Origin: an uncultured Treponema sp.
Lineage (GTDB): Bacteria; Spirochaetota; Spirochaetia; Treponematales; Treponemataceae
Assembly (NCBI GenBank): GCA_946410085.1
Contig: CAMJZA010000008.1
Coordinates: 1-64,000, forward strand
Length of the DNA: 64,000 nucleotides
Reading direction: 5' to 3'
The position numbers were made by a program, and so were the translations under genes. Each line of letters starts with the position of its first letter. The first letter of the stretch is position 1. Positions 16,711-33,856 of the stretch are shown here, one piece after another. Below the pieces are notes generated by a model. It made no database searches. It was not told the origin of the DNA and saw only the letters and a list, made by a program, of their open reading frames with translations.

Positions 16711-16741
16711 AGCGCTTTCTCCTGTCGGGTATGGAGTGTCC

Positions 16742-18094: not shown

Positions 18095-18808
18095 CTAGCT
18101 TACGCTAACCGGCGAGTCAATGACCGCCGTAAAGTAGCTGGTTCCGGGTTTGGTCACGATGCTCACGTCGTAGCTTCCCGGACTCAGGTCCTGCGGAATT
18201 ACGACATCCACGATGTTCGACCCCCGCCGGTTGTAGCTGGAAAGGCGGACGCGGCCCTCCGCATTCTCAAGGAACACGCCCTGCTCGGCATCGTCAATGT
18301 CAAAGCTGAGGTTCCGTCCGTGCAGGCGGAGCGTCTTTCCGGCACTGGCGGAAAGCACCGTGCTTTCGCTCGCATCGCTCTGCAGCACCGTCACCCGGTA
18401 GAGTTTTGCCTCACCCCTGATGTCCGGCGGCATCTGGCGGTATTCCAGCGTCGTCCGCACCCTGCCGGTCGTATCGCTGTTCGCATTGAACAGGAAGCCC
18501 AGCTGATTGTTGCCGCTGCCGAGTACGAAACCGTCCTGGATGGTCCGGCAGGTCCCCGTGGCGTTTGCCCGCAGGCTTCCGAAGGGAAGCTCTACATTGT
18601 AGCCCTTGGCGAGGTACTTCACCACGACGGTGTTCAGCACGCTCAGCATGCCCATGTTGTCCGCCTCGGTGAACGAGGAGTTGTAGCCTGTCATCTCCTC
18701 TGCCAGCTTCTTGACGGACAGGTTCTGTGAGCAGCTGCTCCTGAAGCAGTAGCCGTCTTTCTCTGAATCCTTCGCAAGAGGATTCTTCATTGTTGTAATG
18801 GTAAGCAT
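18095..18808 (-). CDS. HU-like DNA-binding / DUF4469-type protein
   Basis: 237 aa with a strong ribosome binding site (AGGAGGG, 9 bases before the ATG). The N-terminal 120 residues resemble HU/IHF-like domains of the DUF4469 group: LSVKKLAEEMTGYNSSFTEAD, then VVKYLAKGYNVELPFGSLR. The C-terminal half is a beta-rich Ig-like domain with LHGRNLSFDIDDAEQGVFL and LSPGSYDVSIVT. Such proteins occur in Bacteroidetes and spirochaetes, but their cellular role is not known to me. The gene stands alone in the junction zone between two inverted ATPase remnants. Confidence 0.65.
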   Translation of the reverse strand: MLTITTMKNPLAKDSEKDGYCFRSSCSQNLSVKKLAEEMTGYNSSFTEADNMGMLSVLNTVVVKYLAKGYNVELPFGSLRANATGTCRTIQDGFVLGSGNNQLGFLFNANSDTTGRVRTTLEYRQMPPDIRGEAKLYRVTVLQSDASESTVLSASAGKTLRLHGRNLSFDIDDAEQGVFLENAEGRVRLSSYNRRGSNIVDVVIPQDLSPGSYDVSIVTKPGTSYFTAVIDSPVSVS

Positions 18809-19019
18809 ATTCTATGCCCTCCTAAAGTGTTTTTTACGGGAACATACGCTCCCGCTTGATGGCCATAATATACGCCAAAAAAAGGGGGGCGGTTTGTAGT
18901 ATTTTGTTGCAAACCTGCTGCGGGGAAAGTGCTTGTCCTGCCTGCATTTACACGGTTTTTTCAAGTCCGTTTGTCATTTTTTGTTGCAAAACACACAAAA
19001 AATGCCGGACGGCCAGGTC

Positions 19020-19217
19020 GAATGTTTCGGATAATTTTGTGGAATCTTTCGGACAGGCTTGCAGAATGTTTCGGAAAGCCTTGCCGAATGTTTCGGAAAG
19101 CTTTGCCAAATGTTTCGGAAAGCTTTGCCAAATGTTTCGGAAAGCCTTGCCGAATGTTTCAGAAAGCCTTGTCGAATGTTTCAGAAAGCCTTGCCGAATG
19201 TTTCGGAAAGCCTTGTT
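19020..19217. repeat. 22-bp tandem repeat, nine copies
   Basis: Unit consensus GAATGTTTCGGAAAGCCTTG plus CC. The first two units are the most diverged and the last seven are near-identical. Copies abut with no spacers, so this is not a CRISPR array. All three plus frames stay open because 22 is not a multiple of three. 18809-19019 upstream contains no supported gene, only two TTTTGTTGCAAA motifs (18901 and 18979). Confidence 0.93.
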
Positions 19218-19230
19218 GCTAAAATATCCA

Positions 19231-19330
19231 TAAAACTTGTATTTTGCGCATAAAAAAACATTCGTAAAACTTGTATTTGAAGCTTGAAAAACACCCGTAA
19301 AACTTGTATCCTATGCATAAAAAAATTCAC
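19231..19330. repeat. degenerate 33-34-bp direct repeat, three copies
   Basis: TAAAACTTGTAT recurs at 19231, 19265 and 19298, each followed by a variable core and an A-rich end (GCATAAAAAAA or TTGAAAAACA). It lies directly after the 22-bp array and runs into the 3' end of the YbjN-like gene. Confidence 0.75.
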
Positions 19331-19794
19331 CTATCAAGGACTTTTGCATCCTGTAAGTATTCGCGGAATAATTCGGCCATTTCAAAGATCACATCCAGAG
19401 TCCCGTTAAAGTTCTCTGTGTTTATGCCTCCGTCATAGCACATATGATATTCAAGAGCCACATATTCCTCATAGCTGTAGGCAGTCGTAAAGAATTTATT
19501 GAAATTCCATTTGTTCAGCAGGAGGGCAAGACGGGCTTCGGGTATCTGCTTTTTGATGCGCCAAACAGTATTAAAGCTCAGCAGTGTCCTTTCTGCACCG
19601 ACTGCAATCGAGACGCAGATGCCCGATTTTTCGATATCCAAATCCCTGTTTTGATAAATGCTTGCATACGGAGCATACTCGTCATTCAGCAGATTTTTTA
19701 GACTTGCAACCCTTATGGCATCCGACTGCAGCGTTTCAGCAAAGGAACACACCGATACTAAAGCAAGCAGTACAGCCAGTACCATCTTTTTCAT
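19327..19794 (-). CDS. exported YbjN-like protein (paralogue 1)
   Basis: 155 aa from the ATG at 19794 (GGAGGAGATT before it). A signal peptide spans residues 1-19 (VLAVLLALVSVCSFA). The body follows the YbjN/DUF1790-like pattern: LKNLLNDEYAPYAS, LLSFNTVW, ARLALLLNKWNFNKFFTTAY, YHMCYDGGINTENFNGTLDVIFEMAELF. Cytoplasmic YbjN and its type III chaperone-like relatives bind proteins; these exported versions are unstudied as far as I know. Three relatives lie in this window: 32781-33242, 33857-35173 and the stub at 26539-26694. Confidence 0.75.
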   Translation of the reverse strand: MKKMVLAVLLALVSVCSFAETLQSDAIRVASLKNLLNDEYAPYASIYQNRDLDIEKSGICVSIAVGAERTLLSFNTVWRIKKQIPEARLALLLNKWNFNKFFTTAYSYEEYVALEYHMCYDGGINTENFNGTLDVIFEMAELFREYLQDAKVLDR

Positions 19795-19853
19795 AATCTC
19801 CTCCCTGAATTTTCTCTCTGCATATATATTCAAATTTTCAGTATAAAACCTGT

Positions 19854-20091
19854 TTACACAAGCATCTGCTCAATTTTGCAGGTATGAATCTTTGCTTTTT
19901 CATCATAGTTCACGCCGATAAGCGGCATAGACTTTTAAAATACAGCGGCACGGACGGGAAACGCACAGGTACTTGTTGTCTGTTGCCATAAACTCGTTGA
20001 TTACAGCAATCATCATCGTTTTGTCAACATAGATTTTCCGTGTAAGAGTCGCCTTAAAATTCTCGTTGTCCGGGTTCAGATAAATTCCCAT
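19854..20091 (-). pseudogene. AAA-ATPase_like (DUF1703) gene with internal deletion
   Basis: The start at 20091 gives MGIYLNPDNENFKATL and TRKIYVDKTMMIAVINEFM, then CVSRP, where the intact family continues RRFGKT (Walker A). Here the frame breaks and shifts. In another frame the sequence resumes as PLIGVNYDEKAKIHTCKIEQ and ends MLV, the family C-terminus. About 400-500 codons (Walker A through the PD-(D/E)XK nuclease-like part) are missing. The end is an inverted near-copy of 17854-17891. These genes are multi-copy and prone to decay. Confidence 0.7.
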
Positions 20092-20230
20092 GCTTAATAA
20101 TCTCCACACCATAGTATAGCATATAGAGGCTTTATAGACTACCTTTTCGTCATGAAAAAGTGCTCGAAAAAAGGATCATGATAATTGCATAGTCCAGATT
20201 CAGTGAAAATTGACAGGAAGGGGGACAATC

Positions 20231-20338
20231 TTAATCACCATAGAACTCATCATATATAACCTCGCCTCCCAGTTCGTCCTCACCGAAGTTTTCGTCAAGG
20301 CTGCCGGTGTGGACCTGCATATACATGCTCTTTTTCAT
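20231..20338 (-). CDS. possible 35-aa acidic peptide
   Basis: The ATG at 20338 opens MKKSMYMQVHTGSLDENF, followed by a Gly/Asp/Glu-rich end (FYGD). No ribosome binding site is visible. It precedes nothing on its strand but the ATPase remnant and lies just upstream of the caspase gene's 3' end. It could be the tail of a lost gene. The other bases of 20092-20356 show no feature. Confidence 0.3.
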   Translation of the reverse strand: MKKSMYMQVHTGSLDENFGEDELGGEVIYDEFYGD

Positions 20339-20356
20339 GTGTGAAGTTTGAGTTAT

Positions 20357-23300
20357 TTATTTTTCCGAAGAGCTGTCGTAAACGGCGTAATGACGATTTA
20401 CGACTTCCGCAAAAGGATTGATTTCCACATCATTCGATTTTCCCGGAGGCGTATCCCCACAAAGAATGATAGTATAATCTTCCCTCTGACAGGAAACCCA
20501 GGGTGTTTGCATACGTCCAAAAGAAATTAATGCAATGACAGGAACGGTTTCTTCAATATAATTTGCAAGCTCTCTAACCGAAACACCATCTCCGTCTGCA
20601 TCTGCTATCCCTGACAATGCCTGCAGAAGGCAGTAAGTGAAAACGCCATGTTCTCCAACCCCCTCGAAAGCAGACTGTGTATCAGCTGCTGCAGTAATCA
20701 CGGTTTGACCGCTTGTATGGGCAAACCGTTCAAAAGCTGTTCTTTCGCTAATTCTCTCTAAATCTCTGGCAAGATTTTTTTTCTGTATGAAAGCCCCAGC
20801 GTTACAGGTATCAAGCATTATTACCGTCTTTTTTGCCTGTAGTTTTGATAAGTTCTCTATCAGAAAGTTCTTTGAAATACAGCCGGAAAATCCGTCTTGT
20901 GGTGAAAAATCATACGGAAGAAAATAATACTCTCCATTGCTTGCAGTTCCATGACCAGATATGAACAGAATAAAAACGTCATCAGGTTTTATGAGTGTCG
21001 AAAGTGTATCGAAAGCTTTCGTAATGTTTGTACCGGTTGCTTTTTCATTCGAAACTTTCATGATGTTGATTTTGGAATACAGACCTTCCGGTGATTTTCT
21101 GAAACATTCAGAGAGGTCGTTCATATCATTGACCGAATACCGTAAATCTTGCAAACCTTCATGTTTATAATCATTCACGCCAATTGCAAGAATAAACAAA
21201 TCTGGAGAGTCTGTTATACCGTTCCATGTGGTTGATGCGAGTGCATGCAGACTTTCAATTTTTCCAGATGAATTCAGAGCATAAGCCTGAAATACATTTT
21301 CTCCATCATCTAAAACACATTTGCAGGAAAAAATAAGTCTGCCCCCCTTTTTGCTTTTCACTCCTTTCGAAAGCTGGGTAACTCTACCGTTGTGTGAGAA
21401 ATACACATTACCAATTCCTCCGCCGGTATCAGAAATCACAACAGAAATTTCTATTTCCCGGTTCGCTGAATTCAGGGGAATAGAACCGAAAGAGACTTCG
21501 GGAGCATTTCCTGCCGTAAAAAGTAAAGGCAATGGATTTTCAGCGATTCCAAGGCCGCTCAGTTTTTGTGCAACAAGATCAGGTCTGTACAGTATCTCAT
21601 AGAACTGTCCAAGATAAAACACATTCAGACCATCGACCAGATGCATGAATTTTTCAATACCTTCGTCATTACCAGTAAAATATCCTTCAGGTGTGTATGT
21701 AATGAAATTTCCGTTTTCGTCAGCATTGATTACCGCAATGAGTTTTCCCGATGAAACATCATAGCAATCGAGCTTTCCCCCATAAGACTGACAGAACAGT
21801 TTCCTCCCGTCAGCACTGAAAAATGCCGAGAGCGGAGATTTTGCTGGAAATTTTCTAATAAATCTCCGATCCCTGAGATTGAATATGGCACATTCGTCTC
21901 TAGTAAAGGCAGCGATAGTATTGCTGTCACTTGCAAAACAAGCGTAAAGAGTATCTTTCAGAAGTAATTCTATTTCGAATGAATCCGTCGCATAGATTTG
22001 AACTCCCCATTTTCCGATTTCATGATTCATATACCACTTTCCATCAGGACTGAACGCACCGGAATCCATAAAACCTACATCTCCGTTTCTGAAAATGGAT
22101 CCAGTTTCTCTGTTTATCACGACAGATGTACCTTTGATTGATAATGCCAGAAAGCGGCCATCTTCACTCATAATAAGATTGTTACAATAACCTCCTGCAT
22201 TCCACTCAAAGATGCTTTTCTGTGAGTCAACATCAAGTACATCCAGTTTATATTCGGCGGAATCAATGTAGGCAACAGTTTTTCCATTTGCACTTACGGC
22301 AAGTTCAGAATACCATCCTGTTTTAAGCGGAAAAAGATACCGGAGTTTCTGTGTTTCAGTCTCATAGCTTACAAGGGAAAATTTCCTCTCTGCTTGTATG
22401 TATTCCAAGAAATAAAGGCCCCTGTCAAAAAAAGAAGGACTCGAGAAATTATAGCGAATAATTTCCTTTGAGACAGGCTGCAACTCCATATTTGAATTGA
22501 AGAGAAGACTCGGTTGCCAGGGAAAGCCTATTGACGAATGCAGCCAGATCAGATCTTTTCCCGGAACACGGTTTGCCCGCACTTCAGATGAGAAATTCTG
22601 TATTTCTCGTATAAGCTCTCCATCCAGACTCCGCCTGATTTCCAAGCTTGAGCCATAGTTGATTGCAACATGCTTCCCGTCTGGAGAAAAAGACATGGTT
22701 GTGATACTTGCGGAATGCCTTTTTGAGAGTTTCGCAAGCGTTTTTTTTGCGGTTATATCAAAGAGTTCTATGGAATCAGAATCCGAAGAAAAAAGAATGC
22801 TCTTTCCGTCCGGCGAGAATTGGATGTGTTCTGAATATCCTTCAACCGGTAAACTCAATTCGATTTTCCCAGAAAGAACAGACAGGATGAGGAGTTCCTG
22901 ATCCTTTTCCCAGAAAATAACCGCAATATGCAGCCCGTCAGGACTTACTGAAAACTCTTTGATTTTCTTTCCAAAAGAGAAGGTCTTTTCTTTTTTCCTT
23001 TCCCTGACGTTTATGACGGTAACATCTTTTGTTTCGGAATCAGCATCTTGATAGAAAAAATAGTGTGAGTCGGTACTGAATTGCTCATTATTTGTCTGAC
23101 AGTCAATCGGAACAGAAAGACGTTTTTTTAATGTTGCCTGATCATAAAATACAACTTCTTCATGAAACAGAACAGATGCCAAATAGTTCCCGTCGCTGGA
23201 GACAGCAACTGCATGAGATTCTATGTCTTTGAAAACAGTTTCGTCTCCATCTTCAATGCCTTTTGAGTGCAGCAAATGGCACAGAGGGTCTCCGTTCTCC

Positions 23301-23584
23301 TTGTAATAATCGTACCTGTAAAAAAAATGTCTTCCATCAGGGGAAACTGCAATTCCATAATGTATATCATCAAAAGTTCTGATAAGAAGTCCTGTGTTGA
23401 CATCCCATAGCTTTACCTCTGTACCCGAACTTGTCAGAATGTGTTTTCCATCTGAAGTATAGTATACATGCTGTACAAAACCATCGTGCCATTCCTGAGC
23501 TGTAAAAACCGGGACGTGTATATCCTCGGCGATGCAGAAAAAGGATAACGCGAGCAGTATTTGTAAAAGAACAGCTTTTTTCAT
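20357..23584 (-). CDS. exported WD40-repeat protein with C-terminal caspase (peptidase C14) domain
   Basis: 1075 aa from the ATG at 23584 (GAGGG seven bases before). A signal peptide spans residues 1-20. Residues about 35-640 contain many WD40-type blades with SPDGKH/SPDGLH turns, probably two propellers. An Ig-like linker follows (about 690-790). From about 800 comes a caspase-fold domain: LFILAIGVNDYKHEGLQDLR, catalytic His in ISGHGT (about residue 877) and catalytic Cys in LDTCNAGAF (about 928), then ITAAADTQSAFE. Both catalytic residues are present, so it could be active in the periplasm or outside the cell. It is last in the operon after the MotA-like and ankyrin/zinc-tail genes. Confidence 0.9.
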   Translation of the reverse strand: MKKAVLLQILLALSFFCIAEDIHVPVFTAQEWHDGFVQHVYYTSDGKHILTSSGTEVKLWDVNTGLLIRTFDDIHYGIAVSPDGRHFFYRYDYYKENGDPLCHLLHSKGIEDGDETVFKDIESHAVAVSSDGNYLASVLFHEEVVFYDQATLKKRLSVPIDCQTNNEQFSTDSHYFFYQDADSETKDVTVINVRERKKEKTFSFGKKIKEFSVSPDGLHIAVIFWEKDQELLILSVLSGKIELSLPVEGYSEHIQFSPDGKSILFSSDSDSIELFDITAKKTLAKLSKRHSASITTMSFSPDGKHVAINYGSSLEIRRSLDGELIREIQNFSSEVRANRVPGKDLIWLHSSIGFPWQPSLLFNSNMELQPVSKEIIRYNFSSPSFFDRGLYFLEYIQAERKFSLVSYETETQKLRYLFPLKTGWYSELAVSANGKTVAYIDSAEYKLDVLDVDSQKSIFEWNAGGYCNNLIMSEDGRFLALSIKGTSVVINRETGSIFRNGDVGFMDSGAFSPDGKWYMNHEIGKWGVQIYATDSFEIELLLKDTLYACFASDSNTIAAFTRDECAIFNLRDRRFIRKFPAKSPLSAFFSADGRKLFCQSYGGKLDCYDVSSGKLIAVINADENGNFITYTPEGYFTGNDEGIEKFMHLVDGLNVFYLGQFYEILYRPDLVAQKLSGLGIAENPLPLLFTAGNAPEVSFGSIPLNSANREIEISVVISDTGGGIGNVYFSHNGRVTQLSKGVKSKKGGRLIFSCKCVLDDGENVFQAYALNSSGKIESLHALASTTWNGITDSPDLFILAIGVNDYKHEGLQDLRYSVNDMNDLSECFRKSPEGLYSKINIMKVSNEKATGTNITKAFDTLSTLIKPDDVFILFISGHGTASNGEYYFLPYDFSPQDGFSGCISKNFLIENLSKLQAKKTVIMLDTCNAGAFIQKKNLARDLERISERTAFERFAHTSGQTVITAAADTQSAFEGVGEHGVFTYCLLQALSGIADADGDGVSVRELANYIEETVPVIALISFGRMQTPWVSCQREDYTIILCGDTPPGKSNDVEINPFAEVVNRHYAVYDSSSEK

Positions 23585-23614
23585 TTTTATCCCTCTTCGT
23601 ACTATCATAGTAAA

Positions 23615-24817
23615 TCAATCAGATTTCACTTCCGTCTGCTCTATATATCCTTTTCCATGACATCTCGTGCAAGACAAATGCCTATGTATGGAACGATCGG
23701 AACAATACGGACATCGAGTATCGCTTTCGTATACTTTACCGTTATAAGCAGGAGGTGTATACTTTTCTCCCAGACCTGTTCCGTTACAGATTCGACATGT
23801 AACTTTTGTTCTTACTATGGTACGGCTGGGTGAGCCATTGCTTGCCCCGGTACTGCTATTGGAAGTGGATTTGCTGGAATCCGAGCCATTCGTATACGTA
23901 GGTTTTTCCGAGGGGGATGACTCTCCTTGGCGAAGGATGCTTGCAACATCAGTGGTAATGGATTTAAAGATTTCAACCAATTGTTCTGCTGTGGATGTCT
24001 GTGCCAGACGGAGGATTCTTGCAGCATCAGTGGCACGGCGTTCCTCCGCAATATCAAGTGCCGTCCGTCCAATGTTATCCCTTAAATTTGTATCTGCACC
24101 TAAGGAAATAAGCGTTTGAACGGATTCAACATCATTTGCGCTTGACGCAAACATAAGTACGGTCTGCCCATACTCATTTTTCTCATTTATATTTGCACCA
24201 GCTTCTACAAGAATTTTTATCATAGCAGGGGACTTATTACCACCCGTAACAGCATAAAGAAGTGCTGTATGGCCATAATTATTCTTTGCATGTATGTCGA
24301 CACCTGATTTTACAAGCCACTTTGCAACCCTTTGTGAATTATTCATCGCAGCTGCCATTAAAAGAGTATTACCAAGACCATTTCTTTCGTGTATGTCTGC
24401 ACCTGCTTTTACAAGCAACTGCATGGCTTCAAAAGAATCGTTGTTGCCTGCTGCATAGAACAAAGCTTTTTCGCCATAGTAAGGAATGTTATTAACAATA
24501 CCATCATTGCTTTTTATATTGATATCCGCTCCCGATTTAAGAAGTAATTGCACAGCTTCTGAATGGTTATACCATGCCGCTATCATCAGCGGTGTCAGGC
24601 CGGCCCTCGGCTCTTTCTCATTGATGCTGACTCCTCTGGCAATAAGTCGTTGCATTTCCGTTATATTATTTTTCTCTGCTGCTTCATGAAGGCTTATCAG
24701 AGACTGTGCTCCAGCATGAGAAAAAAATGCCATGCTGATAAGGCAGAATATCGAAATTAATCTATAGTTCCGCAAGATTTTTAGACTTACATTTCTATGA
24801 ATCAACTTCTTTTTCAT
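23615..24817 (-). CDS. exported ankyrin-repeat protein with C-terminal CxxCxGxG zinc-finger tail
   Basis: 400 aa. The start ATG overlaps the stop of the membrane-protein gene by four bases and has GGAGGTAATGT before it. A hydrophobic signal segment spans residues 15-38. About six to seven ankyrin repeats follow (LTPLMIAAWYNHSEAVQLLL type) to about residue 270, then a Ser/Thr-rich linker. The last 60 residues carry CRICNGTG, CPYCSD and CTRCHGKG, a DnaJ-like zinc-finger pattern, ending GYIEQTEVKSD. Almost the same tail ends the 676-aa ankyrin protein at 27259-29289. The protein is probably periplasmic or surface-located. Middle gene of the MotA-like/ankyrin/caspase operon. Confidence 0.88.
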   Translation of the reverse strand: MKKKLIHRNVSLKILRNYRLISIFCLISMAFFSHAGAQSLISLHEAAEKNNITEMQRLIARGVSINEKEPRAGLTPLMIAAWYNHSEAVQLLLKSGADINIKSNDGIVNNIPYYGEKALFYAAGNNDSFEAMQLLVKAGADIHERNGLGNTLLMAAAMNNSQRVAKWLVKSGVDIHAKNNYGHTALLYAVTGGNKSPAMIKILVEAGANINEKNEYGQTVLMFASSANDVESVQTLISLGADTNLRDNIGRTALDIAEERRATDAARILRLAQTSTAEQLVEIFKSITTDVASILRQGESSPSEKPTYTNGSDSSKSTSNSSTGASNGSPSRTIVRTKVTCRICNGTGLGEKYTPPAYNGKVYESDTRCPYCSDRSIHRHLSCTRCHGKGYIEQTEVKSD

Positions 24818-25779
24818 ACATTACCTCCATAGCGTCTGAAATCAATCAGCTTGCAGAGCCTGCAGCGAAGGGGAAGCAGAAGTAGGATGGAAAGGAATGA
24901 CAGACCGATCAGAACAATAGGTATTGAAAACAAGAAAGAAATATCGTCCGCATTCTCAAGAGTTCCCATCGTTATGAGTGAAATAAGAACTGCAGCACAG
25001 AATCCCAAAGCAAGCCGTACGGCTATTGCAAAGTCAATGGCTTGAATGTAATCCTCAATCTGTTTTCTCTCATCACTGCATGAAGTCCTGCATCCCAAAG
25101 CAAGGGCTTTGAAATAGGTCTGGAACAACTTTCCGGCAAACAGGAGTATGTACGATGCACAGCACAGGAAAAGCAGCATGAAAGGAACAAGCTTTATAAG
25201 TTTGGCAGGATAATCACTCAGCAAAAAAATGCCGCCAATGGACAAAGCACCAAAAAGAAGGGGGATACCCGCAATAAAGACAAGGTAAGGCTTTCCCGGC
25301 AGTTTAGGCAGTGTAACAGCAGCTTCGGACGGTGATTCTCCGAAAGCAGACAGTTTCTTTCGCAGCACAGATTTCGCAGAAAGGAGAATTATGAGCAATT
25401 CACCTGTATAGAGCATAGATACGAGCCCGAGGGCAAGAATTGGACCCATTCTATATTTTTCCTCCCATAGGGAAAGTATCATCGCAATGCAGAAGAATAC
25501 CATCATGAAACAGGCAGAGAGGGCAGACTGAATGACGAGGGAAACCGCACTTATTGAACGGGCAATCTGTAGGGGAGGAAAAGATCTCTTTGCTACAGCC
25601 ATTTTTGTTCCATTCAAAAAATCCATTATGGAGTTTGATCCGACAAGAACGGTAAGAGCCATTATGAGCATGACAAAGAAACTCGGAATGTCAATCGTCC
25701 AGAGAAAATGCCTGCCCTTTATACCAAGCGCAATCATACTCGACGCGAAGAGAAAGCCTATGGAGATGATATATGTCAT
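24814..25779 (-). CDS. multi-spanning membrane protein, MotA/TolQ/ExbB-like (paralogue A)
   Basis: 321 aa with about eight to nine hydrophobic helices. The N-terminal half follows the MotA layout: IDIPSFFVMLIMALTVLVGS resembles MotA's ID-PS-L-VLGGT segment, and YRMGPILALGLVSMLYTGEL resembles GPAMAVALLTTLYG of MotA helices 3-4. MotA/ExbB proteins form proton channels that drive a periplasm-spanning partner; no MotB/ExbD gene is adjacent. The C-terminal half adds three further helices. The paralogue at 30067-31032 is closely similar over its full length. First gene after a near-consensus promoter. The MotA resemblance is my reading, not a search result. Confidence 0.6.
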   Translation of the reverse strand: MTYIISIGFLFASSMIALGIKGRHFLWTIDIPSFFVMLIMALTVLVGSNSIMDFLNGTKMAVAKRSFPPLQIARSISAVSLVIQSALSACFMMVFFCIAMILSLWEEKYRMGPILALGLVSMLYTGELLIILLSAKSVLRKKLSAFGESPSEAAVTLPKLPGKPYLVFIAGIPLLFGALSIGGIFLLSDYPAKLIKLVPFMLLFLCCASYILLFAGKLFQTYFKALALGCRTSCSDERKQIEDYIQAIDFAIAVRLALGFCAAVLISLITMGTLENADDISFLFSIPIVLIGLSFLSILLLLPLRCRLCKLIDFRRYGGNV

Positions 25780-25819
25780 TCAATTCCCCCTATGAGAAAC
25801 ATTTAGACCATAATTTAGT

Positions 25820-25848
25820 ATTATAAGGGCTAAAAGGCCGCAAATCAA
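25820..25848 (-). promoter_or_regulatory. sigma70 promoter of the MotA-like A / ankyrin / caspase operon
   Basis: Minus strand TTGATT (25848-25843), 17-base spacer, TATAAT (25825-25820). The spacer contains GGCCTTTTAGCC, a dyad also present in the promoter at 33280-33308. Confidence 0.75.
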
Positions 25849-25966
25849 GCGAAAAATGAATCGGCTGTGTATGCTGTCGTCCAAACTGGATTCCCTGGTC
25901 GTATTCGGCTCCAGGGACGGCAGGAACTTCGCCACCCCGCAGGAGCTTCTGCATGGAGCAGGGGGA

Positions 25967-26533
25967 TTACAGCCCCAAATCTTTGAGCACAGCCTGTGCA
26001 TCGGTATCACCGCCTTCGGCTACCTTGAAGAAGTAGCGGAGTGCCGCTTCAGTATCTTCCGGCACCTCCTCTCCTGTATAATACAATCTTCCCAGCTGAT
26101 AATCTGCGGCGGGACAGCCTCTTTCAGAAGCTTTTTCATAATTTTTAATTCCCTGCTTTATATCTTTCTTAACTCCCAGCGCATTTGCATAGCAATAACC
26201 CATCATATAAAAAGCATTTGCATTTTCCAGTTTCGCGGCCTGTTTGAAATACTTTTTTGCTGTCTTCCAGTCATCTTCAAATGTGACATAGTAAATTCCC
26301 AAATCAACCATAGCATCGGACACACCGAAAGCTGCGGCTCTTTTTGCCCATGTAACTGCCTGTTCATTATCAGGCACAACATCAAGATAGCCGTACTGAT
26401 AGCACAGACTTACATTATAGCAGGCCGTCGGATTGCCGGATTCAGCGGCCTGTACCATCCTGTCAAACTCCTCGTTTGCGAACGCAATGCCGGTAACAAA
26501 CAGGATTGTAAGCATTAGCAACAGGTTTTTCAT
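25967..26533 (-). CDS. exported Sel1-like repeat protein
   Basis: 188 aa from the ATG at 26533 (AGGGAGTGACTG before it). A signal peptide spans residues 1-19. About four Sel1-like/TPR helical pairs follow: ACYNVSLCYQYGYLDVVPDN, WAKRAAAFGVSDAMVDLGIYY, AFYMMGYCYANALGV, YQLGRLYYTGEEVPED. Sel1 repeats mediate protein contacts, often in envelope stress or host interaction. The start codon lies five bases after the stop of the truncated YbjN stub, so the two are probably translated from one message. The 120-base gap to the next promoter is ordinary. Confidence 0.85.
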   Translation of the reverse strand: MKNLLLMLTILFVTGIAFANEEFDRMVQAAESGNPTACYNVSLCYQYGYLDVVPDNEQAVTWAKRAAAFGVSDAMVDLGIYYVTFEDDWKTAKKYFKQAAKLENANAFYMMGYCYANALGVKKDIKQGIKNYEKASERGCPAADYQLGRLYYTGEEVPEDTEAALRYFFKVAEGGDTDAQAVLKDLGL

Positions 26534-26538
26534 ATCAG

Positions 26539-26694
26539 TCACTCCCTGTTTTCATACATGCTTGCATACGGAGTATACTCGTCATTCAGCAGTTTTTTGA
26601 GAGCTGCAACCTTCATGGCAGACGGCTGCAGCGTTTCAACAAAGGAACCCACCGGAACCAAGGCAAACAGCACAGCCAGCGCCATCTTTTTCAT
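26539..26694 (-). pseudogene. truncated YbjN-like gene (51-codon 5' stub)
   Basis: The ATG at 26694, with GAGGTATGT before it, encodes a signal peptide and MKVAALKKLLNDEYTPYASM, nearly identical to the YbjN-like protein at 19327-19794. It then stops at TGA 26539-26541 after an unrelated end. The missing two thirds seem replaced by the Sel1-like gene, which starts five bases on. Its own promoter is kept. Confidence 0.8.
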
Positions 26695-26735
26695 ACATAC
26701 CTCGAATTTTCATCTTTCGGTCCGAATAAAAAAAA

Positions 26736-26764
26736 AGTATAAGGAGCAAAAGAGCATAAAGCAA
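26736..26764 (-). promoter_or_regulatory. sigma70 promoter upstream of the YbjN stub and Sel1 gene
   Basis: Minus strand TTGCTT (26764-26759), 17-base spacer, TATACT (26741-26736). The layout resembles the promoters at 25820 and 33280. Confidence 0.65.
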
Positions 26765-26781
26765 GTAAAACGCATAGCTTT

Positions 26782-27159
26782 TCACTCTGGTTCCGGTTCC
26801 TGGTGCACCTGTGCCCCGAATCCGACTTTCTTGCGTGCAATCAAGAATGTAAGAGCTGTCTTTATGGCTGCAATCAATGCAATAATGAAACTCCCTTGAA
26901 ACAGCATTCTTATGATGCTGATGCCGGCAATTGCCAGAATAATGATTAATGCCAGTTTTTTTCTTCCGATAAGAATCCAGAGGTACAATAAGGTTCCAAC
27001 CAAGCCGATGATACCATATATCACTGCGGCCTTTTGATATGCAGTGTTATATTGCGTGGCAGGTTTTGTTGCATATTCAATGCACATAAGCCATTCCGCA
27101 GCAATCATCAGGCAAAACCAGATTATTGCCCCAATACCCCATTTGTTGCTTTTTCTCAT
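26782..27159 (-). CDS. small integral membrane protein, function unknown
   Basis: 125 aa from the ATG at 27159 (GGAGGCAACT before it). Four predicted membrane helices are visible: WGIGAIIWFCLMIAAEWLM, AAVIYGIIGLVGTLLYLWIL, LALIIILAIAGISI, and IIALIAAIKTALTFLIA. The short basic/acidic tail ends HQEPEPE. I recognise no family. It is 100 bases downstream of the 676-aa ankyrin gene in the same direction, so it is probably the end of that operon. Confidence 0.7.
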   Translation of the reverse strand: MRKSNKWGIGAIIWFCLMIAAEWLMCIEYATKPATQYNTAYQKAAVIYGIIGLVGTLLYLWILIGRKKLALIIILAIAGISIIRMLFQGSFIIALIAAIKTALTFLIARKKVGFGAQVHQEPEPE

Positions 27160-27258
27160 AGTTGCCTCCAAATATTTGATGCTTTTTCATTCAAAGTTTC
27201 AAATGAGAACGATATATCATTTAGGACTGTTTTATATAACATCACTAATAAAATACGC

Positions 27259-29289
27259 TTACTGCTCTATATATCCTTTTCCGTGACATCTCATGCAGGA
27301 TAAATGCGTATGTATGGAACGGTCGGAACAATACGGGCATCGAGTATCGCTTTCGTGTATTTTACCATTATAAGCAGGTGGTGTATATTTTTGCCCCAGA
27401 CCTGTTCCGTTACAGAGCCGACATGTAACTTTTGTTTTTATTTTGGTATGACTGGGTGAATTATTGTTTACCTCGGTGCTGCTGTTGGAAGAGGAAGGTG
27501 ATGTATAATTTTGCGTATATGAGGGATTAGACAGTGCTGCTGTCGTATCAGGTGTTGTAAACACCTGTAAAAGGTTTGATAAAAGATCAAGACTTGATAT
27601 AAAAACATCTGCTAAACTGTTATCAGATGAAGTCTGAACTGTTTTATTGGATGCTAAAGCGGAAGAATGTGTCTTTTCTTCCGGTGAAACGGATAAGTTT
27701 CTGAGCAACTGAACGGTTTGGGAATTCTTGTTGCCAGATGCAAAATCAAGTGCTGTATGACCATATCGGTCTTTCGCATTTATATCTGCACCGGATTCAA
27801 TAAGTAACTTCGTAATTTCTATACTGCTTCGCTCTGCAGCTATCATCAACGCTGTACGACCTTCTCGGTCTTTTGCATTTACGTCTGCCCCAGCCTGTAT
27901 AAGCAACCTCGTGATTTCTATACGGCGATAACCTGTATAGAACTCTACAGCTTTCATCAAAGCCGTTCTGTCCAAATGATTCTTCATGTTTACATCTGCA
28001 CCAGCTTGTATGAGTAGATTGGCAACTTCTACATGATTTAAAAATGCAGCATGCATTAATGCGGTACCATATTCATCTTTTGCATTTACGTCAGCTCCCG
28101 CAAGTATAAGCAGTTTTGCAGCCTCCAAACGGTTTGGCAAAGCTGCAGCAATAATTAACGGAGTTTCGCCCTTGTCATTACGGCAATTTACATCGGCTCC
28201 TGAAACAATAAATCTGCTTAAATCAATGAGGTTGTTAGCATTCACCAGTTCATGTAGTGGATTTCTTAAAAAGGCAGCTGTCTTGGAAGAACCTTTCCTT
28301 TCTGCGATTCTAAGAGCGGTCAAACCATTTTTTTCTTTTGCATTTACATCAGCACCCATCTGCATAAGTCGCAGTGCAACTTCAGCAGAGTCATGTTCAG
28401 CTGCATACATTAGCGCCGTGTATCCTGGGTGAGTAGCATTATTTATCACTGCATTTACATCAGCTCCTGCTTCGATGAGCACCTGTGCGGCATCAGCAGA
28501 ATTATACTCAGAAGCATATATTAGTGCTGTATAACCAGTATTATTAGCAATATGTATGTCAGCATCTGCATTTATCAGCACTTGCATGGCATTGACAGAG
28601 TTGCGACTGGAAGCATCCATTAATGCTGTTATTCCATATTTATTAGTTTCATTAACTTTAGCGCCGGCATCTATGAGGATTTGAGCAACCTCAGCAGCAT
28701 TATCCCTGCACGCATTCATGAGTATAGTATTCCCATATTCATCAGTTTCCTCAATATTGGCGCCAGCATCTATGAGTACCTGTGCGACCCCTGGAGCATT
28801 AAGAATTACAGTTTCCCATAATGCTGTATAATTATATTTGTCTTTTGTGTTTATATCTGCTCCTGCATCTATAAGGAGTTTTGCAATTTTCTTATTATCT
28901 TTGGATACAGTTTTTTCAAGGGGTGTATAACCATTGTTGTTCTTTATGTTTATGTTGGCTCCTGCTTTTATAAGGATTTGAGCAATTTCAGTGCGGTCCT
29001 TATATTCATTTGCAGCAAAATGAAGTGCTGTTTCTCCATTTTTGTTCCTAGCATTCACATCTGCCCCAGCATCTATCAAAATTTGAGCTGCTTCCGTATA
29101 ACCGAATAACGCTGCGTCAATAAGCGCAGTGTTTCCGTTGCTGTCTTTTTTGTTCAGATTTGTACCGGTTGCTATGAGCCTGCGCAACTCGGAAGTATCT
29201 TTCAGTGCTTCATGTAGCTTTGGCTTTGCCTCAACAAAGCAAAGCGTGATGATAGCAATACAGAAAGTTGAAATTATTTTTTTTAACAT
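27259..29289 (-). CDS. exported long ankyrin-repeat protein with C-terminal CxxCxGxG zinc-finger tail
   Basis: 676 aa; AAGGAAAACTGCT precedes the ATG. A signal peptide spans residues 1-21. About 15 ankyrin repeats (consensus GYTALIYASEYNSADAAQVL, then IDAGADVN) run from residue 25 to about 545, in two blocks separated near residue 340 by a fresh start (NPLHELVNANNLIDLSRFI). A Ser/Thr/Asn-rich linker follows. The last 55 residues carry CRLCNGTG, CPYCSD and CMRCHGKG and end GYIEQ; this tail is nearly identical to that of the protein at 23615-24817. The repeats are close to each other, suggesting recent internal duplication. It lies in the operon behind the MotA-like paralogue B. Confidence 0.9.
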   Translation of the reverse strand: MLKKIISTFCIAIITLCFVEAKPKLHEALKDTSELRRLIATGTNLNKKDSNGNTALIDAALFGYTEAAQILIDAGADVNARNKNGETALHFAANEYKDRTEIAQILIKAGANINIKNNNGYTPLEKTVSKDNKKIAKLLIDAGADINTKDKYNYTALWETVILNAPGVAQVLIDAGANIEETDEYGNTILMNACRDNAAEVAQILIDAGAKVNETNKYGITALMDASSRNSVNAMQVLINADADIHIANNTGYTALIYASEYNSADAAQVLIEAGADVNAVINNATHPGYTALMYAAEHDSAEVALRLMQMGADVNAKEKNGLTALRIAERKGSSKTAAFLRNPLHELVNANNLIDLSRFIVSGADVNCRNDKGETPLIIAAALPNRLEAAKLLILAGADVNAKDEYGTALMHAAFLNHVEVANLLIQAGADVNMKNHLDRTALMKAVEFYTGYRRIEITRLLIQAGADVNAKDREGRTALMIAAERSSIEITKLLIESGADINAKDRYGHTALDFASGNKNSQTVQLLRNLSVSPEEKTHSSALASNKTVQTSSDNSLADVFISSLDLLSNLLQVFTTPDTTAALSNPSYTQNYTSPSSSNSSTEVNNNSPSHTKIKTKVTCRLCNGTGLGQKYTPPAYNGKIHESDTRCPYCSDRSIHTHLSCMRCHGKGYIEQ

Positions 29290-29305
29290 AGCAGTTTTCC
29301 TTCGT

Positions 29306-30070
29306 TTAATAGTCTATATATCCCGAACCATTACAGATATAACATCGCTTGTGGGTGTGAGAGTTTACAATGCTTTTGCAAATGTCACAATATGACTTTG
29401 ATGCTATTCCATCATATGCAGGAGCTTCTATATAATCATATCGAAGATATCCAGTTCCATTACAGGAGGAACAGATTTTATGTTCCTTGATGCGGGAAGG
29501 AGAGCTGGCAGAATTGCCATACGTTGAATATCCATACGGGTTTCCCAATACATCGTCATATAAATAATGATCCAACAATGTGTCGTCATAACTGTATGGG
29601 TTTCCATAAGGGTTTTTATACATATCAGTTGGTCTGGAATTGTTAGAATTGCCACTGGTAGATGCAGGTTCAATCCAGTAAAAACCACCATACTGGTCAC
29701 AAGTTTTTCCTGGTTTTTTTACGACCGCAGCGACGTTTAGAATTCTATTTTCTCCTTCTATTTTTATAGAAACAGAATAAACCTCCTTTGCTGCGCATTT
29801 ATACTCATTCAGCGCAGCCCAAAAAAGAAAATCCTCCTGTTTTGATAGCTTGGTGCAGTATCCAACAATATTATATCCTTTTTCACGCAAGAATCTTTCA
29901 TAGCCGACTAAATAATCAGAAGGATTTATATCTTTAGTTGTTCCAACGTAGAATGCCATAGCACTACCACTGTAACCATTCTTGGTGTCCGAATAGTATT
30001 TGTAACCTTCCGCTTGCAATAAGACGGTTACGGACATTATTACCGAGAAAACAAGAAGCCTTTTTTTCAT
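29306..30070 (-). CDS. exported protein with Tyr/Asn-rich linker and C-terminal CxxCxGxG zinc-finger tail
   Basis: 254 aa from the ATG at 30070 (GGAGGTACCCT before it), overlapping the upstream stop by four bases. A signal peptide spans residues 1-20. Residues 21-135 form a compact domain of unknown family (DYLVGYERFLREKGYNIVGY). A Tyr/Asn/Gly-rich stretch (NPYGNPYSYDD, LGNPYGYS) follows. The last 60 residues carry CSSCNGTG, CDICKS and CYICNGSG and end in GYIDY, a diverged version of the ankyrin proteins' tail. It sits between the MotA-like paralogue and the ankyrin gene, the same position the ankyrin gene has in the other operon. Confidence 0.8.
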   Translation of the reverse strand: MKKRLLVFSVIMSVTVLLQAEGYKYYSDTKNGYSGSAMAFYVGTTKDINPSDYLVGYERFLREKGYNIVGYCTKLSKQEDFLFWAALNEYKCAAKEVYSVSIKIEGENRILNVAAVVKKPGKTCDQYGGFYWIEPASTSGNSNNSRPTDMYKNPYGNPYSYDDTLLDHYLYDDVLGNPYGYSTYGNSASSPSRIKEHKICSSCNGTGYLRYDYIEAPAYDGIASKSYCDICKSIVNSHTHKRCYICNGSGYIDY

Positions 30071-31032
30071 AGGGTACCTCCATAGCACCTGAAATCAATC
30101 AGTTTTTTGATCCTGCAGCGCAGGGGAAACAGGAACAGGACAGAAAGGAATGTCAATCCGATTAAAACAACAGGAATTGAAAGTAAGAAAGGAAGTTCTT
30201 CCCCTCTTTCAAGGGTTCCCAGTGTTATGAGCGAAATTAGAACTGCAGCGCAAAAGCTTAAAGCAAGCCGTGTGGCTATTACAAAATTCACGGCATGTGC
30301 ATAGTCCTCAAGCTGTTTGCGCGTATCATTGCATGAAGTTCCACATCCAATACTAAGAGCTTTGAAATAGGTTTTAAGCAATTTTCCTGCAAGCAGAAGA
30401 ATATATGATGCTCCATACAGGAAAAGCAACATAAAAGGAATAAGCTTTACAAGGGTAGCAGGATAATCGCTCAGCAGAAAGATATCGTCAATGGATAAGG
30501 CAAGGAAAAGCAATGGAATTCCTATAGCAAAAACAAGGTAAGGCTTTCCCGGCAACTTAGACATCGTAACGTTCTCATCGGACGGCGATCCCCCGAAAGC
30601 AGACAGCTTTTTTCGCAGCACAGATTTCGCTGAAAGTAGAATTATAAGCATCTCCCCTGCATATAAAATGGACACAAGTCCAAGTGCAAGTATAGGTCCC
30701 ATCCTGTATTTCCCTTCCCATAGCAAAAGTATCAGCGCAATGCAGAGGAATACCATCATGAAACAGGCACAGAGAACAGACTGAATGACGAGGGAAATCG
30801 CACTTATTGACCTGGCAAGCTGCAGGGGGAGGAAAGATTTCTTTGACACAGCCATTCTTATTCCCTTCAAAAAATCCATTGCAGAATCAGAACCAATAAG
30901 GACAGTGAAAGTCGTTATGAGCATAACGAAGAAACTGGGAATATCAATAGTCCAGAGTATATTACCGCCTTTGACTAATGGTGCAATACAATGAGCAATG
31001 AGAATAAAACCTATGGAAATGATAAATGTCAT
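30067..31032 (-). CDS. multi-spanning membrane protein, MotA/TolQ/ExbB-like (paralogue B)
   Basis: 321 aa, same length as and collinear with the protein at 24814-25779. Conserved segments include TIDIPSFFVMLI, RSISAISLVIQS and YRMGPILALGLVSILYAGEM. The C-terminal GCGTSC / GCRTSC loop differs only slightly. The start has GGAGAGG before it and overlaps the upstream TPR gene stop by four bases; its own stop overlaps the zinc-tail gene by four bases. Tight coupling suggests the three products are made in a fixed ratio and work together at the inner membrane. The same caution on the MotA assignment applies. Confidence 0.6.
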   Translation of the reverse strand: MTFIISIGFILIAHCIAPLVKGGNILWTIDIPSFFVMLITTFTVLIGSDSAMDFLKGIRMAVSKKSFLPLQLARSISAISLVIQSVLCACFMMVFLCIALILLLWEGKYRMGPILALGLVSILYAGEMLIILLSAKSVLRKKLSAFGGSPSDENVTMSKLPGKPYLVFAIGIPLLFLALSIDDIFLLSDYPATLVKLIPFMLLFLYGASYILLLAGKLLKTYFKALSIGCGTSCNDTRKQLEDYAHAVNFVIATRLALSFCAAVLISLITLGTLERGEELPFLLSIPVVLIGLTFLSVLFLFPLRCRIKKLIDFRCYGGTL

Positions 31033-31937
31033 ACTTGTTCCTCTCCTGAAGATAATGAGTTGAGTAGCTTCGCTGCTTTTTCATGATATTCTGATGCTTT
31101 CCGTTGATTCCACATAGCTTCGTAGACATCTGCAATTCTATCGTACAATTCTGCTGTTCTTCTAAGGTCGTATGCAGCCTTAAATATTTCAAGGGCTTTT
31201 TCATAGCAGACTATTGTTTTCCTGCGGGTACCTTTGGCAAACAAGGCGGTTCCAACATTAATGTACGATTCGGCAACAGCAGGATGCTGCTCTCCGAAAA
31301 CTTTAAGCCGTATCTCGAGCGCCTTTTCATAATTTACAAGCGCCTTTTTATATTCATCCATGTGCATTAAAATACTTCCGATATTGCTATACGAAGTAGC
31401 AACGTCTGGATGGTCATCTCCATTTAATGCTTTTTTTATCGCTAGTACCTTCTCATTGCAGGAAATGGCTGGCTTATAATCACACTCGTTGAAATATAGA
31501 TATCCCATTTGGCTGTATAAACTTGCCACATCAGGATGATTCTCTCCATGTTCTGACTTACATTCTTCAATATCTTTTTCCAACTTCATCAGTGCTTTGT
31601 CATAGCTTTCGGAATCACGAGAAGACGCTTTTCTTATTCGCCGTTCCTTGTAAGCCATCTTCTTTCCCCAAAAATGATTGAAGCAAAAACTGATCGCGAA
31701 GCCGAAAAAGAGAAATACCAACAGGCCGATAACCATCAGTACAGAACCAATGATTGAAAAAATATGTGGTCCACCATCAAACTCTCCATAGCGATAAATA
31801 GATCCACCGGAAAAAATCAATACAAAACTGGGTAAAACCCCAATCAAAAAAGAAATGCTTGGTCTATTTAAAATTTTACTAACCTTTGTTGTTTTGGGAG
31901 CATCCTGATATGATTTGTATGTGTAAAAGACCTTCAT
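31029..31937 (-). CDS. membrane-anchored TPR protein
   Basis: 302 aa. Two membrane helices lie near residues 28-46 and 58-82. After a basic stop-transfer segment (KKMAYKERRIRK) come about four TPRs of the kinesin-light-chain type (HPDVASLYSQMGYLYFNECD, HPAVAESYINVGTALFA). Without a signal peptidase site, both helices probably stay in the inner membrane with the TPRs in the cytoplasm. It is coupled by ATGA overlap to the MotA-like gene, so a role as its cytoplasmic partner is plausible. Confidence 0.82.
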   Translation of the reverse strand: MKVFYTYKSYQDAPKTTKVSKILNRPSISFLIGVLPSFVLIFSGGSIYRYGEFDGGPHIFSIIGSVLMVIGLLVFLFFGFAISFCFNHFWGKKMAYKERRIRKASSRDSESYDKALMKLEKDIEECKSEHGENHPDVASLYSQMGYLYFNECDYKPAISCNEKVLAIKKALNGDDHPDVATSYSNIGSILMHMDEYKKALVNYEKALEIRLKVFGEQHPAVAESYINVGTALFAKGTRRKTIVCYEKALEIFKAAYDLRRTAELYDRIADVYEAMWNQRKASEYHEKAAKLLNSLSSGEEQV

Positions 31938-31963
31938 AAATCTGCCGGAACCTCTCTTTTTGA

Positions 31964-32035
31964 CTATTGTTTAGCTGATGTAATTACCGTCACGATCGTA
32001 ATAAAGAGAAAGATTGCAGTGCTGATATGTATCAT
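31964..32035 (-). CDS. 23-aa hydrophobic peptide with strong ribosome binding site
   Basis: The ATG at 32035 follows AGGAGGAATTGC, a perfect Shine-Dalgarno at ideal spacing. The peptide MIHISTAIFLFITIVTVIT ends SAKQ: a single membrane helix with a polar C-terminus. It lies in the operon between the exported repeat protein and the TPR membrane protein. Its size and form resemble membrane-complex accessory peptides or type I toxins. No antisense RNA promoter is evident. Confidence 0.6.
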   Translation of the reverse strand: MIHISTAIFLFITIVTVITSAKQ

Positions 32036-32074
32036 GCAATTCCTCCTATGGAATGCTTTGGAAACTCAGAATCA

Positions 32075-32764
32075 TTACCTTGAATGCAGATAATTATCGT
32101 ATTGATTCGCCGCTTTTTCTGCATCAGCCTTATGCTGGCGTGCCCATCTGTAGCTGTCCATATTACCGCTCGCATATGCCTGTTCTGCCTGACTTTCCCA
32201 ATATGCGGCATCATTTTTCGCATCCCTCTTTTTCTGCATCCAGAGTTCCTGATAGCCGCTGGAACTGGATGAATTGGAATAGCTGCCAGTACCATAGCCA
32301 TAGCTTGGGACAGAGCTATAGCTGGGGCTACTGTAATATGAAGATCCCGAATACTTTCCTTTATAAGCATCATCGAGAATCTTGTCTATGTCATAGCTGG
32401 GAGTGCTGTGATATGAAGATCCCGAATACTTCCCTTTATCAGCATCATCAAGAATCTTGTTTAAGTCATTGATTATCGTCTCAGTTTTTTTTCTGGAATC
32501 TTCAAGAATCTTTGATGATTGTTTATCAAATTCCTTGTAAACCCGTAAAAGATCCGGATCTGTAGGAATTGCATCATAGTTTCCGTTGATATAGTTATTC
32601 TCTATCTTGGATACCTCGTCCAGGGCTTTTGCCATACTGTCAAACCAGACCCAATCATCATCGTACATCCCGTAATAGTTTGAGCCATACGATTGAGCTC
32701 CTGCAAATGACATGGCAGCGAAAACAATGCATGCAATGACCGGGATTTTCTTTATGCAATTCAT
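32075..32764 (-). CDS. exported Ser/Tyr-rich repeat protein, function unknown
   Basis: 229 aa from the ATG at 32764 (GCAGGAGATCGT before it). A signal peptide ends SFAGA near residue 22. Residues 95-145 contain a 25-residue duplication (KILDDADKGKYSGSSYHS and KILDDAYKGKYSGSSYYS) encoded by a 75-bp tandem repeat, followed by a Ser/Tyr/Gly-rich stretch. The C-terminal 60 residues are helical and charged (MQKKRDAKNDAAYWESQAEQ). No family recognised. Second gene of the operon that starts at 33242. Confidence 0.72.
   Translation of the reverse strand: MNCIKKIPVIACIVFAAMSFAGAQSYGSNYYGMYDDDWVWFDSMAKALDEVSKIENNYINGNYDAIPTDPDLLRVYKEFDKQSSKILEDSRKKTETIINDLNKILDDADKGKYSGSSYHSTPSYDIDKILDDAYKGKYSGSSYYSSPSYSSVPSYGYGTGSYSNSSSSSGYQELWMQKKRDAKNDAAYWESQAEQAYASGNMDSYRWARQHKADAEKAANQYDNYLHSR
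32333..32470. repeat. 75-bp coding tandem duplication
   Basis: AAGATCCCGAATACTT recurs at 32341 and 32416 with matching flanks (TTTATNAGCATCATC and AGAATCTTGT), a period of 75 bp or 25 codons. Confidence 0.85.
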
Positions 32765-32780
32765 ACGATCTCCTGCTCTT

Positions 32781-33242
32781 CTAGAGAACATCTTCTTCCA
32801 GCAGATAATCATTAAATGACTTGGCAATTCCAAAAATCAACTCTAAAGTTCTATTGAAGTTCTCTGAATCTACGCCCCCGTCAAAACAGAGGTAATAGTC
32901 AAGATAAATGAGTTTATCCCGTTTATAGGCAATCAAAAAGATTTTATCGGCGTTCCACTTATTCAGCAGACGGGCCATACGGTTCTCCGAGACTTGTTTT
33001 TCAACTGTCCATGTCGTAAAAAAATTCAACAGCTTCCGATTTTCATCGATTGTGATGTAGACATATATACCTTCGTTTTGTATACATAGATCTCCATCTT
33101 TATCTACAACCGCAAGGGAGGCATAATTGTTATTCAACATATTTTTCAAGGCTTGGGCCGTAACTGATGATGATTTTAAATTCTCGGCAAAGGAATACAC
33201 TGATACTAAGGCAAGCAAGCAGATCAGTAGTTTATTTTTCAT
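32781..33242 (-). CDS. exported YbjN-like protein (paralogue 2)
   Basis: 153 aa from the ATG at 33242 (GGAGGTTTGT before it). A signal peptide spans residues 1-19 (LLICLLALVSVYSFA). The body parallels the protein at 19327-19794: LKNMLNNNYASLAV, RLLNKWNADKIFLIAY, YYLCFDGGVDSENFNRTLEL, then IFGIAKSF. First gene of the operon with MotA-like paralogue B, behind a near-consensus promoter. As the first product it may be a soluble periplasmic partner of the later membrane and zinc-tail proteins. Confidence 0.78.
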   Translation of the reverse strand: MKNKLLICLLALVSVYSFAENLKSSSVTAQALKNMLNNNYASLAVVDKDGDLCIQNEGIYVYITIDENRKLLNFFTTWTVEKQVSENRMARLLNKWNADKIFLIAYKRDKLIYLDYYLCFDGGVDSENFNRTLELIFGIAKSFNDYLLEEDVL

Positions 33243-33279
33243 ACAAACCTCCGAATAGTCTTTAAGACCATCTTTCGAA

Positions 33280-33308
33280 ATTATAAGGGCTGAAAAGCCA
33301 TAAGTCAA
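33280..33308 (-). promoter_or_regulatory. sigma70 promoter of the YbjN / MotA-like B / ankyrin operon
   Basis: Minus strand TTGACT (33308-33303), 17-base spacer, TATAAT (33285-33280). The spacer has the dyad GGCTTTTCAGCC. Confidence 0.8.
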
Positions 33309-33523
33309 GTAAAAATAACCAAGAAGTTCACTTTTGAAGCACAATAAGGTTTTTTCCACATTAGGAGGGACTGAATCCTGTAAACCTGAAACTGCTTATT
33401 ACAGTCTGTTGGCCCATTATAACAAAGGTGTACGTTCTATAAGGGCATAAAAAACAGAGAATATAGGCTATACTCCTATCTGCATAATAATGAAGCAATT
33501 TTGGGATGCGTTGAACAAAAATT

Positions 33524-33832
33524 ATGGACGAATGTTTTTTTTCTGACAGACTGCGAGCTTTACGAAACGAAAGGAATATTTCGGCCAGAGAAATGAGCCT
33601 TGCACTTGGTCAAAATGATACCTACATTAACAAGATTGAAACGGGGCAAAGGTCTGTTTCATTGTCGGGATTCTTCAGAATCTGTGATTATCTGAAAATA
33701 TCACCGGCTGATTTTTTTAATCTGGAAGTTCAAAATACAACTTATGATGCTAAGCTCATGGAGCAGTTTAAGAAGCTGTCCCCGACGCAGGCAAAGCACA
33801 TCCTGTTTGTGATTAATGAAATGATCCGATAA
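33524..33832 (+). CDS. small XRE-family DNA-binding protein
   Basis: 102 aa. Residues 6-65 are an HTH_3 domain (LRALRNERNISAREMSLALG, then NDTYINKIETGQ), followed by a short helical C-terminus (LSPTQAKHILFVINEMI). No ribosome binding site is seen before the ATG. TATACT at 33469-33474 is a possible -10, but its -35 is poor. It is the only plus-strand gene in the 20-35 kb island and is divergent from the YbjN/MotA-like operon, so it is a candidate regulator of it. Confidence 0.82.
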   Translation: MDECFFSDRLRALRNERNISAREMSLALGQNDTYINKIETGQRSVSLSGFFRICDYLKISPADFFNLEVQNTTYDAKLMEQFKKLSPTQAKHILFVINEMIR

Positions 33833-33856
33833 CGACAGCTGCATTCGGCATAGCGG

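Follow-up and report, generated by a model that had tools for sequence, protein, structure and literature searches.

Bacterial relatives of caspases are mostly discussed as cytoplasmic enzymes of cell death or defence. A WD40-bearing member of this group with an apparent signal peptide, encoded by an uncultured Treponema sp., raises the question of where such a protease acts and with which partner. The window (the whole stretch of DNA analysed, 64,000 nucleotides, positions 1 to 64,000 of contig CAMJZA010000008.1) contains the gene on its minus strand together with the features collected in Table 1. The open frame (20357-23608) was intact, and ATG 23584 (MKKAVLL), the start assumed in the earlier sequence-only reading, was favoured by its ribosome-binding context, with GAGGG 6 nt upstream; no such site preceded ATG 23608. 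Residue numbers (H886, C935, D828 and D933) are counted from the first ATG (23608). No second C14 protein was found in the window genome. Codon-position identity to its closest relative, L043, was 0.61/0.74/0.37, and the strongest divergence at third positions points to selection on the protein.

Table 1. Coordinates of the caspase gene, its parts and its surroundings in the window
Feature	Position	Strand	Remark
Putatively exported WD40-caspase	20357..23584	-	1075 aa from ATG 23584; 1083 aa from upstream ATG 23608
Predicted signal peptide, MKKAVLLQILLALSFFCIA/ED	23528..23584	-	rule-based prediction
WD40/propeller region, ~residues 30-650	21655..23520	-	WD40/propeller family matches
YTPEGY...YRPDLV module after the propellers	21560..21700	-	invariant alignment columns
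Ig-like beta domain, ~residues 700-796	21220..21510	-	alignment and low-confidence model
Peptidase_C14 (caspase) domain	20489..21190	-	profile match
Catalytic His886 codon	20951..20953	-	motif ISGHGT, homologue alignment
Catalytic Cys935 codon	20804..20806	-	motif LDTC, homologue alignment
EF-hand-like loop, DADGDG-VSVRE	20570..20602	-	lacks one residue of the relatives' canonical loop
Exported ankyrin-repeat protein with DnaJ-type CXXCXGXG tail	23615..24817	-	operon member
Multi-spanning membrane protein ('MotA-like' in the earlier reading)	24814..25779	-	operon member, no Pfam match
Second ankyrin/zinc-tail gene	27259..29289	-	duplicate of the partner, no caspase after it
Second membrane-gene copy	30067..31032	-	73% identical
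Low-GC island	18800..34900		contains the operon and locally duplicated copies of its genes

The Peptidase_C14 profile was matched over residues 807-1040 at 78.7 bits (78.7-82.9 bits across searches, cut-off 21.4), and the curated C14 threshold was passed. The His/Cys pair, earlier described as intact, was borne out by an alignment with ten homologues, in which H886 (ISGHGT) and C935 (LDTC) were invariant. The S1 pocket of TbMC2 contains two aspartates, Asp95 and Asp211 (PMC6426788), whose equivalents here, D828 and D933, were also invariant; because they were matched by motif position and not by structure, we infer rather than assign a basic P1 specificity, with which cleavage would follow Arg or Lys. 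The product is a member of the already known prokaryotic caspase homologues with WD40 repeats, WD40 being the commonest extra domain of such homologues (73 of 671; PMC3501461, PMC5756287), and is best read as a putative orthocaspase, a type set apart from type I metacaspases by the lack of a p10 domain.

WD40/propeller family matches confirmed the beta-propellers noted earlier. With its signal peptide (by rule), N-terminal WD40 region and TPEGY/Ig-like linker, the protein matched the layout of Spirochaetota WD40-caspases. Two AlphaFold2 runs, each from two aligned sequences only, gave mean pLDDT values of 47 and 45, so that the fold rests on sequence profiles; the arrangement of strands in the models would fit two propellers, an Ig-like domain and an alpha/beta order like that of caspases, but is not relied on here. 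When the first model served as a Foldseek query, MALT1 paracaspase and Arabidopsis metacaspase 9 appeared amid poor or unrelated matches, and the search was accordingly given little weight. A TPEGY-type module also closes a solute-binding/WD40 protein in L056, and at 7683-11249 of L055 an exported WD40/TPEGY-type protein has a transglutaminase-like domain where the caspase would otherwise stand.

By hydropathy and a simple rule, the N-terminus had a KK n-region, a single hydrophobic core and an AxA-like end without a lipobox; the predicted signal peptide was type-I-like. This agrees with the signal peptide proposed in the sequence-only reading, and relatives keep theirs. C14 proteins were carried by 35 of 146 genomes of the genus, and among the 56 frames extracted from them the dyad was kept in 52 and a signal-peptide-like start was found in 48, under a rule that is lenient because the best of several possible starts was chosen. 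Plasmid-encoded relatives in Pseudomonadota and Bacteroidota had such starts as well. In Treponema sp. JC4, of the same genus (L032), the WD40-caspase runs on into a Peripla_BP_4 domain (E 3e-54), and in L055 the related platform with the transglutaminase-like domain is exported; this fusion and this platform support a periplasmic location. The window protein would likewise be exported, and the protease probably acts outside the cytoplasm, in the periplasm, as had been proposed. The accompanying view that export sets this protein apart from cytoplasmic caspases does not hold in this genus, since signal-peptide-like starts are the rule there and export is not unusual in the lineage. Signal peptides were already suspected in many N-terminal helices of prokaryotic caspase homologues in a 2012 survey (PMC3501461).

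The predicted site of action also bears on the reading of the gene as an abortive-infection caspase acting against phage or in cell death, which would be a cytoplasmic effector beside defence genes; this combination was not found here. A weak match to a PADLOC caspase model (40 bits) and the TIR and TPR-CHAT genes at some sister loci with the membrane gene are consistent with such a role, but the signal peptide and the periplasmic fusions point outside the cytoplasm, no recognisable defence genes were present in the operon, and no matches were obtained in 50,697 phage records or in viral contigs. We regard this role as very improbable. An origin of the gene from phage was rejected on the same searches.

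As to partners, the caspase gene had been described as closing an operon with the membrane and ankyrin/zinc-tail genes, and the arrangement was confirmed, the first two genes overlapping by 4 bases and 30 bases separating the stop of the second from the caspase start. A promoter-like consensus site was present upstream of the membrane gene, although such sites were no commoner than in shuffled sequence. The 'MotA-like' label found no confirmation: none of seven members of the membrane-gene family matched any Pfam family at E<0.1, and the protein had about eight hydrophobic segments. In L066 (4843-14306) and L067 (7464-11514) a related membrane gene has as neighbours genes for a radical SAM/SPASM protein and for two exported proteins, a transglutaminase and a small one; L066 has a TIR/WD40 gene too, and both membrane-gene loci also have TPR-CHAT or TIR genes.

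Whether the operon is a functional unit, in which the ankyrin/zinc-tail protein would serve the caspase as its substrate, inhibitor or adaptor, with the membrane protein as sensor or anchor, was considered from its conservation. Its tight spacing favours such a unit, but phmmer searches of 64 related loci found neither a homologue of the membrane protein nor the zinc tail at any of them, L043 lacked all three neighbours, the second membrane and ankyrin/zinc copies in the window stand without a caspase, and in L066 and L067 the membrane gene adjoins the exported transglutaminase instead. Exported ankyrin proteins without the zinc tail were found at three of the 64 loci (L052, L124 and L126), a biased sample in that L124 and L126 had been fetched for their DUF4384 linkage. 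These ankyrins, at three distant loci, had signal-peptide-like or lipoprotein-like starts and lay on the same strand beside the WD40-caspase and DUF4384 genes, and no adjoining exported ankyrin was seen at the non-WD40 C14 loci examined. They make an ankyrin partner possible. As a whole, the functional unit is rather unlikely. On partners, the sequence-only reading, which offered the operon members as possible activator or substrates of the protease and would be refuted by homologues without the same neighbourhood, is mostly not supported: the neighbourhood was largely lacking across the 64 loci, and only the exported ankyrins speak for part of it.

The conserved partner of the family is instead a CsgG-like/DUF4384 protein. 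Clustering of neighbours recovered an exported protein of ~325 aa carrying DUF4384 at 10 of 16 homologue loci; within the genus, a same-strand DUF4384 gene lay within 8 kb of 41 of 57 C14 hits and in 29 of the 35 C14-bearing genomes. In other families of the phylum the partner also matched CsgG, FlgO or LpoB, and at the level of the phylum DUF4384 linkage was seen for 18 of 20 tabulated C14 hits, a table built around linked cases and not a rate. The partner is usual, not universal: an adjoining copy was missing at the window gene and near L043, L047 and L131. A family search positive in 55 sister genomes gave no DUF4384 hits in the window genome or in the closest relative genome (G013), which for the window genome, a 97% complete draft, is a non-detection. 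The companion profile, which had no positive control of its own, likewise found no match in the window genome, and an LPP20 search of it gave no matches, its controls being silent too. A tree built from 23 domains placed the window protein as sister to L043 (100/99) within a group that includes the DUF4384-linked L045b (97/96). The simplest reading is that the partner was lost or that the gene was acquired without it.

The same relatives usually carry an EF-hand loop. A canonical loop, D-x-[DN]-x-[DN]-G-x-[VI]-x-x-x-E, was located by motif script in the C-terminal portion of the caspase domain of ten WD40-caspases of the genus (10 of the 11 members, other than the window protein, whose sequence is complete in this region, L045b being without it), and the script found it in no other C14 protein of the genus. 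The canonical 12-residue form is missing in the window protein, where the loop is one residue short, and in L045b, where it is degenerate; this feature, too, is usual but not universal. When the family profile was searched against PDB sequences, the best matches were EF-hand calcium-binding proteins over the loop stretch. Some archaeal orthocaspases are also reported to contain EF-hand motifs (PMC6426788). The family may be under calcium control through this loop.

The operon lies in an island of ~15 kb with ~41% GC, compared with 54.6% and 57.6% on its two sides (range given, 55-58%). GC3 was 0.36 in the caspase gene and 0.55-0.79 in the flanking genes; in relatives the caspase gene mostly differed in GC from its own surroundings by no more than a few points. 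A low GC content need not mean transfer. Import of the island by transfer is likely rather than established, because the island yielded no integrase, tRNA or other mobility gene; scanning the window for tRNA genes and Rfam families gave no hits. Within the island, a YbjN-like exported gene (19643-19795) is accompanied by a truncated second copy (26543-26695, 86% identical), and downstream of the former, at the island edge, nine copies of a 22-base tandem repeat occupy 19019-19215. A TPR gene at 15430-16755 ends early in a CHAT domain and is taken as encoding a truncated CHAT protein, the match reaching no further than position 76 of the 289 in the profile.

A duplication-rich island of low GC, a missing partner gene and a shortened EF-hand loop could together mark a gene that is inactive or decaying. 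The full-length frame, the intact dyad and pocket, and the divergence from L043 mainly at third codon positions make this improbable.

Taken as a whole, the locus is best explained, with moderate confidence, by an orphan, probably imported, periplasmic WD40-orthocaspase. The protein would be a Sec-exported orthocaspase-type cysteine protease of the periplasm, possibly of the surface, whose N-terminal propellers would select or hold a protein target and whose C-terminal caspase domain, with its acidic S1 pocket, would cut after Arg or Lys. In the Spirochaetota family to which it belongs, the gene of the protease normally stands beside that of the exported CsgG-like/DUF4384 protein, and the protease usually has an EF-hand-type loop; periplasmic calcium and the DUF4384 envelope partner are thus possible requirements for its activity. 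The window copy would be an orphan from the AT-rich island, with no detectable DUF4384 and a shortened loop, sharing its operon with a duplicated ankyrin/zinc-tail gene and a membrane gene by a link that is not conserved. Among its relatives it stands out mainly by this low-GC, probably imported setting and the missing partner gene. This proposal is built on the observations described above: the domain matches, the active-site residues, the N-terminal signal kept in relatives, the counts of linked loci and the composition of the island; a function as a regulatory or stress protease acting in the envelope would be in keeping with them. A wider scheme, which we put forward tentatively and do not hold to be the probable one, is a Spirochaetota periplasmic caspase system in which an exported WD40-caspase, switched by calcium through the EF-hand loop, would cut envelope proteins together with the exported CsgG-like/DUF4384 protein and in part with exported ankyrins; the window would then hold a partner-free version spread by the island.

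Compared with the described WD40 metacaspases and orthocaspases (PMC3501461, PMC5756287), the present protein has in common the C14 domain with His and Cys, the WD40 repeats and a probable signal-peptide helix, but its propellers are N-terminal and a TPEGY/Ig-like linker is added; for the EF-hand loop and DUF4384 neighbour of its relatives no earlier description was found. Type I/III metacaspases and TbMC2 have the same catalytic dyad and the same pair of acidic aspartates in the S1 pocket (PMC6426788), whereas the putative calcium site here is an inserted EF-hand-like loop and not a p10 aspartate. A tie between a caspase domain and DUF4384 is also known from Alphaproteobacteria, in which trypsin-like/QC-dyad pseudo-enzymes carry DUF4384 as a C-terminal fusion (PMC6426788); in the spirochaetes it is part of an exported CsgG-like protein of its own, and the caspase has an intact dyad. 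The usual neighbour matches the profiles of the CsgG/FlgO/LpoB envelope proteins, to which it adds a C-terminal DUF4384 and a pairing with the protease, and it is absent beside the window gene. The link between an exported caspase and a CsgG-like/DUF4384 protein was not described in the open-access literature searched, and is a more interesting result than the window gene itself. That most caspases of the genus are predicted to be exported and tied to an envelope-type partner suggests a periplasmic role, and the orphan copy is a ready-made contrast for judging if activity requires the partner and the EF-hand loop. At three loci (L049, 3207-5999; L053, 4558-7281; L054, 3122-5800) a large gene for an ARMT1-like damage-control phosphatase separates the DUF4384 gene from that of the WD40-caspase.
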